A stretch of DNA of 64,000 nt from a bacterium (GTDB lineage: Bacteria > Vulcanimicrobiota > Vulcanimicrobiia > Vulcanimicrobiales > Vulcanimicrobiaceae), in assembly GCA_021832345.1 (NCBI GenBank), contig JAKBKY010000001.1:582385-646384 (forward strand), given 5' to 3'. The stretch's first letter is position 1. Each line of letters starts with the position of its first letter. Shown here piece by piece: positions 8,629 through 51,598 of the stretch. The position numbers and the translations under genes are program-made. The notes beneath the pieces are model-generated. The model was not told where the DNA came from. It was given only the letters and a program-made list of their open reading frames with translations, and made no database searches.

Positions 8629-10056
8629 ATGATGCCGGTATATGAACTCGGGCCGTTCCGCCTCGACGCGGAGCAACTGATCCTCTCGTTGGGTGGTGAG
8701 CCGCTCGCGCTTGGGCCGAAGGTCGTGCAGACGCTCCTGGTGCTCGTCGAACGCCCGGGCGAGGTGGTCGCCAAGCCTGCGCTCTTGGCGCGCGTGTGGC
8801 CTGAAGGCTACGTTGACGAGGCGAATCTCGCCCAGAATATCTACGTCTTGCGCAAGACTTTTCGCGCGCATTGGCGTGCCGATGCGATCGCGACCGTTCC
8901 TCGCCACGGCTATCGTTTCGTCGGCGCGGTTCGGCAGGTTGCTATCGCTGCGTCCCTGCCGCTCGCGGAGGGAGCGGTCGCGCATCGGCCTGTGCCTGCG
9001 CGTCTCTGGTCTCGCATGTACCTGCGCCTAGCGGTGGCGGGCGCGGTGCTCGTCGCGGTGGCCGGCATCGCGGCCGGCGCGCATGCATATACCGCTGCCG
9101 TGCCGCATCTCTCGGCGCACGGACGCCGGCTCTATCAGATCGGCCGATACTACTGGAGTCAACGGACTGCGGTAGGCGTTCGCAAGAGCCTGTCCTACTT
9201 CGCGCAGGTAGTCGATGCCGATCCAGGCGACGCGCGCGGCTACGCCGGTCTGGCTGCGGCCGACGCGATCATGGGGGACTACCACTATGGGAAGATCGCG
9301 CCGAAGGTCTACTTCGCGCGAGCGCAGGCGTACGCGCGCAAAGCGCTCGCACTGGATGCGGGCTGCGCGCAGGCCTATGCTGCTCTTGGACTGATCGACA
9401 TCGATACGCACCACCTGGCGCGCGGCGTGCGTACGCTGCGACGCGCGATCGCTCTCGATCCTCGCGACGGACCGGCGCACCAATGGTATGGCACGGCGTT
9501 GCTCCTGCGTGGCCATGTGGCCCGCGCCTTGCGGGAGCTCAAGACCGCCGCCGACATCGATCCTCTCTCGGTAGCGGCCACCGATTGGCTCTCGAGTGCG
9601 GCCTACTACGACCGTCGCTACGACCAAGCGATTGCCTATGCACGTCAGACGCTCGATCTCTCACCGCAGCGCGTCGATGCGTGGGCGGAGATCGGGCTTG
9701 CGTATGAAGCGCGGGGCAACATGGTGCACGCAATCGGCGCATTTCATACATTCGCGCACAAGTGCGCGTCGTGCCGGGCGGAGGCCGCAGCGCTGCTCGT
9801 TCCGGTCTACGTCGCCGGGCACCATCCCAAGCGCGCTCGCGCCGAGCTGCGCTATGCCGAGGGTCATCGCCGCGCGGTCTCCTCGGAGGATCTGGCGATC
9901 GCGCTGGCATCGTTGCATCGTCAGGCGGCAGCCTTAGCCGTCCTGCGGCATGCGCGCCCGACGATGCTCCGGGTGGACCTGGCGATCGATCCGCGCTTCG
10001 ACGTGTTGCGTCGCGATGCGGCGATCGTCGCGCTGACCAAGAGCTCCGCATCGTGA
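8629..10056 (+). CDS. CadC-like winged-helix regulator with TM helix and TPR repeats
   Basis: The 475-residue protein has three parts. Residues 1-100 form an OmpR/PhoB-type winged helix, with LGPKVVQTLLVLVERPGEVV, the recognition-helix region ANLAQNIYVLRKTF and the wing VPRHGYRFVG. One membrane helix spans about residues 128-150. The C-terminal part, presumably outside the membrane, is a tetratricopeptide array of at least six A/Y-rich helix pairs. It lacks a receiver domain, as in CadC/ToxR-like one-component sensors. Of two adjacent ATGs the first is used here. Its stop overlaps the GTG of the selenoprotein gene (GTGA), so the two are probably co-translated. Confidence 0.88.
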   Translation: MMPVYELGPFRLDAEQLILSLGGEPLALGPKVVQTLLVLVERPGEVVAKPALLARVWPEGYVDEANLAQNIYVLRKTFRAHWRADAIATVPRHGYRFVGAVRQVAIAASLPLAEGAVAHRPVPARLWSRMYLRLAVAGAVLVAVAGIAAGAHAYTAAVPHLSAHGRRLYQIGRYYWSQRTAVGVRKSLSYFAQVVDADPGDARGYAGLAAADAIMGDYHYGKIAPKVYFARAQAYARKALALDAGCAQAYAALGLIDIDTHHLARGVRTLRRAIALDPRDGPAHQWYGTALLLRGHVARALRELKTAADIDPLSVAATDWLSSAAYYDRRYDQAIAYARQTLDLSPQRVDAWAEIGLAYEARGNMVHAIGAFHTFAHKCASCRAEAAALLVPVYVAGHHPKRARAELRYAEGHRRAVSSEDLAIALASLHRQAAALAVLRHARPTMLRVDLAIDPRFDVLRRDAAIVALTKSSAS

Positions 10057-10532
10057 GCGATCACGAGCGCGCGCTCTGCGCGGCGTTGGCCCAGCGTCCG
10101 CAGATCGCGCGTACCCTCGTTGCCCATCTTGCGTCGATCTTCGACGCCGGAACGGTTGCGCGCCGGACGAAGGAGTTGTGCGCGGTGATGGTCGCGCGCT
10201 TGAACGCCTGTACCTATTGAGGGGCCATGCATGACGCCTCGGCGAGGCGTCTCGGGGTGGATGACACAACGCTCGATGCGCTGGCCGATTATGCGCGTGA
10301 CCCGAGCTTTACGCCGCGTGAACGCGCGGCCTTAGCGGCATCGGTGGCGCTCACCCGCGAGCCGCGAGCGCTGCCGCCGGCCGTGCGCTGCGAGCTTGAA
10401 GCCCACTACGACGAGGGTGAGATCGTCGAACTGGTCAGCCTCATCGCCGCGATGAACGCCCTGACTCGCCTGAGCAATGTGCTCGGCGTCGAACCTAAGG
10501 GCACCTCGATAAATCCGGGCACTCGTCTTTGA
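10053..10532 (+). CDS. AhpD-like peroxidase-fold protein, predicted selenoprotein (Sec56)
   Basis: Read through an in-frame TGA at 10218-10220, the frame from GTG 10053 gives one 159-residue AhpD/carboxymuconolactone-decarboxylase protein. The helix before the TGA ends RLNACTY; TGA and GAMH follow, so the redox motif is C-T-Y-U-x-x-x-H, exactly where AhpD proteins have CxxC...H. Downstream helices (SFTPRERAALAASVALT, then EIVELVSLIAAMNALTRL) match the family, and the reading frame is unbroken on both sides. A hairpin at SECIS spacing follows the UGA. It is coupled to the TPR regulator by a GTGA overlap. The alternative, a frameshift-free nonsense pseudogene, is less likely because of the hairpin and the exact Cys position. 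Confidence 0.85.
10233..10251 (+). promoter_or_regulatory. Putative bacterial SECIS hairpin for the AhpD-like gene
   Basis: A perfect 7-bp stem, GACGCCT (10233-10239) with AGGCGTC (10245-10251), closes a 5-nt loop CGGCG. The loop starts 20 bases after the UGA and has a G among its first two bases, within known limits for bacterial SECIS elements. Function requires SelB, which is not in this window. Confidence 0.7.
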
Positions 10533-48329: not shown

Positions 48330-48490
48330 TGGCGCTCACGCTGGTTTTGGAGTAGCATCGGCTCACCCCTGGTTACCTCGTTCTTGTTGCACTCAGCCGC
48401 ACACGAGATAGGAGTTCACCGCAGGGCTTCGCGTTCTGTGCCCTCAGGCAACCGCTGGGGGAGCGGCGACGTATAGCGCGAGGAGGCACC

Positions 48491-51400
48491 GTGGCAAAGA
48501 CGACCATCGATCTCACCGGGCGGATCGGCATGCTGCCCAACTTGCTTTCGGCACGAACCCGTGCGCTCCAGGCGCGCGTGAGCGACGCTCGCAGCGTGGT
48601 CAGCGTCTGTCCGTACTGTGCGGTTGGGTGCAGCACGCTTGCGTACGTCGGAGACGATGGTCGCCTGCTCGATGTCGAAGGTAATCCAGACTCGCCGATC
48701 TCCGCCGGGCATCTCTGTCCGAAGGGCTCGGCGATCTTTGGGTTGACGGTCAACAGCGCACGCTGGACGAGCGTGAAGTACCGCGCGCCGCACAGCCGTC
48801 ATTGGGAAGATCGTCCGCTCGGCTGGACGCTGGAGCGTATCGCGCACCTGGTCAAAGAGACGCGTGAGCGCACCTTCGTGCGGGAGCGTGACGGCAAGCG
48901 CGTCAACCATACGCTGGGCATCGCCTCGCTCGGCGGTGCAACCTTCGGTTGCGAGGAGAACTATCTCCTCGGCAAACTCATGCATAGTCTCGGGGTCGTC
49001 TCGATCGAGAATCAAGCCAGGATATGACACTCCTCCACGGTGCCGGGTCTCGGCACCTCGATGGGACGAGGCGGAGCAACGGTCTGGGTACCGGATCTGC
49101 AAAATGCGGACTGCATCTTGATTCAAGGCTCGAACTTTGCCGAGGCGCATCCGGTGGCATTCCGCTTTGTCATGAAGGCCAAGGAGCGCGGCGCGACCAT
49201 CATCCACGTGGACCCGCGCTTTACGCGAACCTCGGCGCTGGCCGATCTCTATGCGCCGTTGCGGAGCGGCACGGATATGGCCTTCTTGGGCGGCATCATC
49301 AATTGGGTTCTCTCACACGAGCGCTACTTCAAAGAGTACGTTGCTGCGTACACCAACGCAGGTCATATTCTGCGTGCGGACTTCGTTGATACCGAGGATT
49401 TGGACGGCCTCTTCTCGGGGTACGATGCTCAAGCGCGGCAGTACGACCAGACGACCTGGGACTTCGAACGGGATGCCGGCGGTGCGATTGCGAGCGACCC
49501 GACGCTGACCCACCCGCGCTGCGTCCTCGCTCTGCTGCGCCGTCACTACGCACGCTACACGCCCGAGCTCGTCGAACGGGTCTGCGGCACGCCGAAGGAC
49601 GTCTTCCTGCGCATCGCCGGCCTCCTGGCCGAGAATAGCGGACGCGAACGGACGACCGCCTTTGCCTATGCCGTCGGTTGGACGCAACATAGCGCCGGCG
49701 TGCAGTTTATCCGTAGCGCCGCGATCCTGCAACTGCTCCTTGGAAACATCGGCCGTCCGGGCGGAGGCATCATGGCGTTGCGTGGGCACGCGAACATCCA
49801 GGGCGCAACCGATATCGCCACGCTCTACGATCTCTTGCCGGGATACCTTCCCATGCCCTCGGTGTTGCGCGACGAGCAGACGCTGGCGGCCTATCTGCGC
49901 ACCAACACGAAGACGACCGGCTGGTGGGCGAATATGCCCAAGTACGTGGTCTCGTTGCTCAAGGCGTTCTACGGCGCGGCGGCACGACCTGAGAATGACT
50001 TCTGCTTCGAATATCTGCCGCAGTTGACGGGCGATCACTCTACGCTGCCGACGACGTTCGCGATGAAGGATGGAGTGGTCAAGGGCTACTTCGTGATCGG
50101 CCAAAACCCGGGCGCCTCGGCGCAGAATGCGGAACTGACGCGTTCGGCGATGGAGCGTCTGGAGTGGCTCGTGAATATCGATGCGTACGAAAATGAGACC
50201 TGCGCGTTTTGGAAGCGCGAAGGCGCAGATGCGGAATCGATCGGAACCGAGGTCTTCTTTCTTCCGGCTGCCACGATCTTGGAGAAGGAAGGGACGATGG
50301 TGCAGACCAGTCGTCTGCTGCAGTGGCACGACAAGGCGCTGGAACCAGCAGGCGATTCAAAGAGCGATCTGTGGTACGTCTACGAGTTGGGCAAACGCCT
50401 CAAAGCGCTCTACGCCGGCTCCAGCGATCCCAAGGACCGGCCCATCCTCGACATGACCTGGTCCTACGATCATGAAGACGCGCGGCAGGCGGCGCGCGCA
50501 GAGCCCTCCGCGCTCAAGGTGTTGCAGGAGATCAACGGGTACGCCGTTGCCGACGGTCGACAGGTGCGCAGCTTTGTCGATCTTGCCGACGACGGCTCGA
50601 CTGCGGCCGGTGGATGGATCTTTAGCGGCGTCTGCCCCGATCGCAGGAGCAATCATGCGCGTAATCGTCACGGGGACGCCGGCACGGCGCTCGACTGGGG
50701 CTGGGCGTGGCCGGCAAATCGTCGTACCCTCTACAACCGCGCCTCGGCCGACCCGCTGGGCAACCCGTGGAGCGAGCGCAAGAAGTACGTGTGGTGGGAT
50801 GACGCGGCTGGGGAATGGACGGGCATTGATGTGCCCGATTTCCCGAAGACCAAAGCGCCGACGACGAAGGCGCAGCCGCACGGCATCGGTATGGAGGCGC
50901 ACTCCGGTGCGGATCCGTTCATCATGACGGCCGACGGCCGGGGGCAACTCTTCGTGACCGACGGACTGAAGGACGGACCGCTCCCGGTCCACTACGAACC
51001 GCTCCAGTCCGTCGTGGAGAACCGCCTCTATTCGCAGCAGAGCAATCCACTGCTCAAACAGTGGAACCGGCGCGATAATCGCTACAACGCTGCCGTTGAC
51101 CCGCGCTTTCCGTTTGTGTTGACGACCTACCGTATCACCGAGATGTCGGGCATCATGACGCGCTACGTGCCGTGGCTGGCCGAACTCCAACCGGCGGCCT
51201 TCTGCGAGATCGATCCGCAACTGGCCGTCGAGAAGGGCATCCGCAGTCGCGATTGGGTGACGATCTCAACGGCGCTCGGTGAGATGGAGGCCCGCGCCCT
51301 GGTCACCGGGCGGCTCAAGCCGTTGCGCGTAAGCAAGGGCCAATGGATCCATCAGATCGGAATTCCCTATAACTACGGCTCGTTCGGCTTGGCGCGAGGG

Positions 51401-51598
51401 GATACGCCCGGCAATCTCATTCCGCTCTCGATGGATCCCAACGCGTCGATCCATGAAGCCAAGACGATGTCCTGCGATCTGCGCAAAGGACGGCGCGCGT
51501 GCTATGCCGAGAGCGTTGTGGACGTCGATGTGCCGCCGGAGCAACGGACCCGCGAGGGTGAAGCGATGGTTCACGGCTTGGACGGGCCTGCGCAATGA
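48491..51598 (+). CDS. fdhA: Formate dehydrogenase catalytic subunit, selenoprotein (Sec179)
   Basis: The molybdopterin enzyme oxidises formate to CO2. It starts at GTG 48491 after GAGGAGG. The [4Fe-4S] site is CPYCAVGC (Cys40, 43, 47) with HLCPKG. Translation reaches TGA at 49025-49027 in ENQARI-U-HSSTV, exactly the selenocysteine position of FdnG-type enzymes, and continues in frame to 51598 (1035 residues) with HVDPRFTRTSALADLYAP, GRPGGGIMALRGHANIQG and a molybdopterin-binding C-terminal domain. No twin-arginine signal is seen at the N-terminus, unlike periplasmic homologues. It overlaps fdhB by four bases. Confidence 0.96.
49039..49057 (+). promoter_or_regulatory. SECIS hairpin for fdhA
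   Basis: GGTGCC (49039-49044) pairs with GGCACC (49052-49057) around the loop GGGTCTC. The loop begins 18 bases after the UGA and contains GGTCT, matching the GGUCU of the E. coli fdhF element. This supports selenocysteine insertion rather than termination at 49025. Confidence 0.88.

Follow-up and report, generated by a model that had tools for sequence, protein, structure and literature searches.

A predicted AhpD-like selenoprotein gene with a conserved winged-helix/TPR partner gene in a Vulcanimicrobiaceae genome

The window (the whole 64,000-nucleotide stretch analyzed here) carries a pair of overlapping genes on the forward strand. The upstream gene (8629–10056) encodes a protein with an OmpR-type winged helix and TPRs. 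The gene directly downstream (10053–10532, forward strand) encodes a predicted AhpD-like selenoprotein; it comprises 159 codons, starts with a GTG codon that overlaps the TGA stop of its neighbour as GTGA, and terminates at an ordinary UGA (10530–10532). Its frame is interrupted only once, by a TGA codon at positions 10218–10220. The read-through product has 159 aa and gives a Pfam PF02627 match that spans the interruption (residues 16–96, E 3.4e-13). An earlier note on this DNA had described a complete 159-residue AhpD-family protein split by this in-frame TGA and coupled through GTGA to the gene before it, and both statements are borne out by the sequence. The shorter ORF that it had pointed out, starting at ATG 10227, is also present; it encodes 101 aa and lacks the redox motif. 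An ordinary gene caller would render this one selenoenzyme as a stub and a fragment.

The TGA occupies the place of the second cysteine of the redox motif, with a histidine four residues on, as had been claimed. The active-site segment reads C53-T-Y-U56-G-A-M-H60 (10209–10232, forward strand), and E41 (10173–10175) completes the proton relay known from AhpD. In the Pseudomonas aeruginosa protein PA0269 this relay is composed of Glu36-Cys48-Tyr50-Cys51-His55 (PMC3141380). These residues correspond to E41, C53, Y55, U56 and H60, so that all five match, one Cys being replaced by Sec. The AlphaFold2 model is all-helical (pLDDT 88), and its best structural matches are P. aeruginosa AhpD entries (7xw1, 2ijc/PA0269). 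Structurally the model is nearest to AhpD and peroxidase-related proteins, and the debrominase Bmp8 was found among the structural neighbours.

Profile searches placed the protein above the cut-offs of PF02627 (49.8 bits; cut-off 23) and of the AhpD core model TIGR00778 (40.8 bits; cut-off 27.8). Its best NCBIfam match, the peroxidase-related enzyme model TIGR01926, which matches all 27 members scanned, scored 73 bits, yet this is below the cut-off of 81.8. Scores for the YciW-related (seleno)protein model NF053654 (68.7 bits; cut-off 310) and for the AhpD-related (seleno)protein CFYUT model NF041238 (29.1 bits; cut-off 175) were far under the respective cut-offs. The protein is therefore filed as an AhpD-like selenoprotein and not as a formal member of TIGR01926, NF053654 or NF041238.

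Homologues were searched for in 98 related genomes, which yielded matches at 40–60% identity. In the resulting alignment, 12 sequences have TGA at the column in question, 18 have Cys and one has Ser. The 12 TGA sequences come from twelve related genomes, one each, the genome of the window included, while the 18 Cys sequences include a distant Ramlibacter protein, which was the sole match when genome contigs were searched with the single window protein. Relatives with Cys at this codon, which the earlier note had named as a check, were thus found at exactly the same column as the TGA forms. Ser occurs only in G027, which has lost the entire motif. On either side of the TGA the protein sequence is conserved among the homologues, and the sequences closest to the window protein by identity (G001 and G002) are both Cys forms. 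Four further TGA homologues (L083–L086) lie outside the 12. A second Sec copy is listed under G046 (L077, G046:C221); it has almost the same sequence as the G056 copy (genus g25) and is located on a contig of 3097 bases, so short that it may represent contamination of the G046 assembly.

A putative bSECIS hairpin (10233–10251, forward strand) follows the UGA. It consists of an 8-bp stem closed by a GGC loop, which begins 20 nt past the UGA, and it satisfies the published bSECIS constraints (PMC13188914); the 47 nt after the UGA fold at -20.5 kcal/mol. The earlier note had proposed a perfect 7-bp hairpin with a 5-nt loop. Its presence and spacing stand, but its size does not, because the best fold has 8 bp and a 3-nt loop, and the 7/5 version omits the loop-closing C-G pair. 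Taken by itself the hairpin carries little weight: its fold energy is unremarkable for a sequence of this composition (z-score -0.77), and in these GC-rich genes about 7% of codons precede an equally long or longer stem that obeys the bSECIS limits for spacing, loop size and a G in the loop. A scan of the region against Rfam returned only chance-level matches and no SECIS family.

The hairpin gains its significance from the comparison, since every TGA homologue has it at this position, with covariation, and the Cys homologues lack it. It lies approximately 20 nt past the TGA in every TGA form, with 8 bp and a GGC loop, except that the most divergent form has 7 bp and a GG-containing loop; the same hairpin is present in each of the four further TGA homologues. 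In a fixed register, all eight pairs are formed in 11 of the 12 TGA sequences and seven in the twelfth (G010), versus 0–6 in the Cys forms. The stem variants among the TGA forms include GACGCCUC/GAGGCGUC, GGCGCCUU/AAGGCGCC, GGCGCUUU/AAAGCGCC and ACCGCCUU/AAGGCGGU, with two-sided compensatory changes at four of the eight stem pairs. In register 98.9% of cells pair, compared with 36–71% when the partners are slid, and the covariation score was reached by none of 500 shuffles. Residues encoded by the hairpin are roughly (G/D)-A-(L/S)-A-(R/K)-R-L-G in most TGA forms and differ in the Cys forms, the pattern to be expected where an RNA structure limits the protein sequence. The bSECIS element anticipated in the earlier note was therefore recognized as a conserved, covarying structure, and the codon-column and hairpin comparisons taken together identify the TGA as a predicted selenocysteine codon.

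The genome of the window (2.34 Mb, 98% complete) encodes the machinery for selenocysteine insertion, the presence of which had been proposed as a test: selA (505 bits) with selB adjoining it, selD (359 bits) and a tRNA-Sec with the anticodon TCA. At least three other selenoprotein genes could be distinguished in this genome. The genome's own SelD gene has an in-frame TGA, and a TxxU peroxiredoxin with a T-P-V-U site is encoded in L087 (G000:C7:51500–55500), where the TGA is codon 122 of the frame starting at base 1234 of L087. The third encodes a formate dehydrogenase alpha subunit and is the second selenoprotein gene of the window (48356–51598, forward strand; TGA at 49025–49027, Sec within QARIUHSS). 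Its product scored above the cut-offs of NF041513 and TIGR01553, and the hairpin GGUGCCG-GGUCU-CGGCACC is located just 3′ of its UGA. Ordinary annotation may split this gene. Among the 98 relatives, selA was over the cut-off in 80. All 12 TGA genomes have selA, and it was not found in G001 and G012, both of which carry Cys forms; this correspondence says little, given that almost all of these genomes have selA and that the G001 assembly is only 70% complete.

The protein encoded upstream contains the winged helix at residues 23–97, a predicted membrane segment at about residues 130–152 (read from the sequence) and then the TPRs. A homologue of this putative regulator immediately precedes the AhpD-like gene, on the same strand, in all 27 loci of the same family, beside Sec and Cys forms alike. 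It is absent from this position in the three loci of a second family within the class and in Ramlibacter. The unusual pairing with a CadC-like TPR sensor pointed out in the earlier note is thus real and conserved, while the regulated peroxide or disulfide system that it read into this pairing is a matter of interpretation. Two other neighbours are often conserved as well: downstream an RDD/M48-like gene, and on the far side a DUF5916-like gene, whose Pfam score falls under the cut-off. The selenoprotein gene is probably co-transcribed with the gene of the membrane-bound regulator, which may control it. The TPR part of the regulator contains a CxxC (KCASCR) that is kept in several but not all homologues; as a hint of a redox sensor it was rejected owing to this inconsistent conservation. 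We consider it improbable that the regulator and the AhpD-like protein (Sec or Cys) constitute one redox-signalling pair, in which the cytosolic thiol/selenol enzyme would set the redox state of the regulator or be induced by the membrane regulator, with the partly conserved CxxC as a possible switch. No description of a redox-signalling module composed of such a regulator and an AhpD-like protein was found in the literature.

Two readings would deny the locus a selenoprotein. The TGA could be a nonsense mutation, or a miscalled TGC or TGT, in a C-x-x-C AhpD-like gene that has become a pseudogene or was wrongly sequenced; indeed TGC or TGT, one base away from TGA, occupies the codon in many close relatives. 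Such an origin does not account for an identical TGA in 12 independent genomes, each with a covarying hairpin that none of the Cys forms possesses, nor for the conservation of both halves of the gene and the decoding of Sec elsewhere in this genome. In practice the comparisons already refute this reading, and we regard it as highly improbable. It is no more credible that translation inserts another residue at the UGA, e.g. Trp, through a changed code or leaky read-through without selenocysteine. UGA read-through is known in bacteria in general, but the homologues hold Cys and not Trp at this codon, an ordinary UGA terminates the same gene, and the Sec machinery is complete and accompanied by a covarying SECIS. 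The sel genes, the Cys or Sec of the relatives and the covarying hairpin all favour the selenoprotein proposed in the earlier note. We therefore hold it very probable, on the strength of the comparisons described above, that 10053–10532 encodes a full-length AhpD-like selenoprotein, a CMD-fold C-x-x-U oxidoreductase whose UGA would be decoded with SelB and the hairpin. The Sec codon, the SECIS, the machinery, the predicted fold, the active-site residues and the conserved gene pair all have support from the comparisons.

According to the proposed mechanism, the ribosome and SelB would decode UGA 10218 as selenocysteine with the hairpin 10233–10251 as a guide, and the resulting oxidoreductase would adopt the all-helical CMD fold, with C-x-x-U as its active site and the Glu/Tyr/His proton relay of AhpD. 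At the position of the second catalytic Cys, Sec56 may attack a peroxide or disulfide and may then be resolved by Cys53 via a selenenylsulfide. The protein could also be a genuine selenoprotein that catalyzes a thiol/selenol reaction other than the peroxide or disulfide reduction of AhpD, for instance reductive dehalogenation or the reduction of a small molecule controlled by the upstream regulator. This is a tentative alternative, possible though rather less than probable. The presence of Bmp8 among the structural neighbours is in line with it, as are the weak peroxidase activity of PA0269, the only activity of this kind that the protein showed (PMC3141380), and the local gene content: no peroxiredoxin adjoins the gene, and the conserved neighbours (the regulator, RDD/M48-like and DUF5916-like genes) are not redox genes. 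Arguing for AhpD-type chemistry are the full set of proton-relay residues, the AhpD and peroxidase-related proteins as nearest structures, and the Sec peroxiredoxin encoded elsewhere in the genome.

In a protein tree built with the Sec/Cys column masked, parsimony requires four changes of the Sec/Cys label, of which at least two are forced by well-supported branches. G071 (L049) and G077 (L047), the two Cys forms from the second family, are nested inside Sec forms, a pattern that reads as a Sec-to-Cys change; both have also lost the first Cys and retain the second alone. The tree does not place the window gene firmly and does not settle the direction of its own Sec/Cys change. Other variant sites were observed in G012 (L043), in which Asn replaces the active-site His, and in G027 (L039), which has no CxxC/U motif but is conserved in the rest of the protein and still has the regulator next door. 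The degenerate sites of these four sequences suggest that in some genomes the role of the protein is altered or not catalytic. A second AhpD-like selenoprotein type, with C-x-F-U-x-D-I, hairpins after the TGA and no His four residues on, was found in L072 (G061), L073 (G062) and L075 (G005), and could be a separate subfamily. Because one conserved gene pair exists in both Sec and Cys versions, and only the former carry a covarying SECIS, the family is well suited as a natural system in which to study Sec/Cys exchange.

Selenoprotein catalogues have listed AhpD-like and CMD-like CxxU proteins since 2005; the published accounts distinguish AhpD-like type 1 (COG2128/TIGR01926) from AhpD-like type 2 and CMD-like proteins (PF02627) (PMC1088965, PMC2398784, PMC13188914). 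A literature search for selenoproteins together with Eremiobacterota or Vulcanimicrobiota found no paper. The window protein resembles the published AhpD-like selenoproteins in its CMD fold, its CxxU with Sec at the second Cys, its bSECIS with a loop G and its widespread Cys homologues, and it differs in scoring slightly under the TIGR01926 cut-off and in the winged-helix/TPR gene pair, which the available portions of these descriptions do not mention. The M. tuberculosis AhpD (PDB 1gu9, 1knc) shares the Glu-Cys-x-Cys-His relay and the two-helix active-site hairpin (PMC3141380), but has another topology and only 12–14% identity; its Cys133 is Sec and its His132 is Tyr in the window protein, and among the neighbouring genes examined at our locus there is no ahpC next to the selenoprotein gene. 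PA0269 (PDB 2o4d, 2ijc, 7xw1) is closer, with a fold TM of 0.8 and 33–35% identity over 138 columns, and differs in having Cys51 where the window protein has Sec56. The partner protein resembles CadC/HilA-type regulators in its N-terminal OmpR-type winged helix followed by a membrane segment (as in CadC) or TPRs (as in HilA), although its scores fall well short of the curated cut-offs for either family. The kind of protein is thus already known and the conserved regulator partner is the unusual feature, one that could help to reveal what AhpD-like selenoproteins do.
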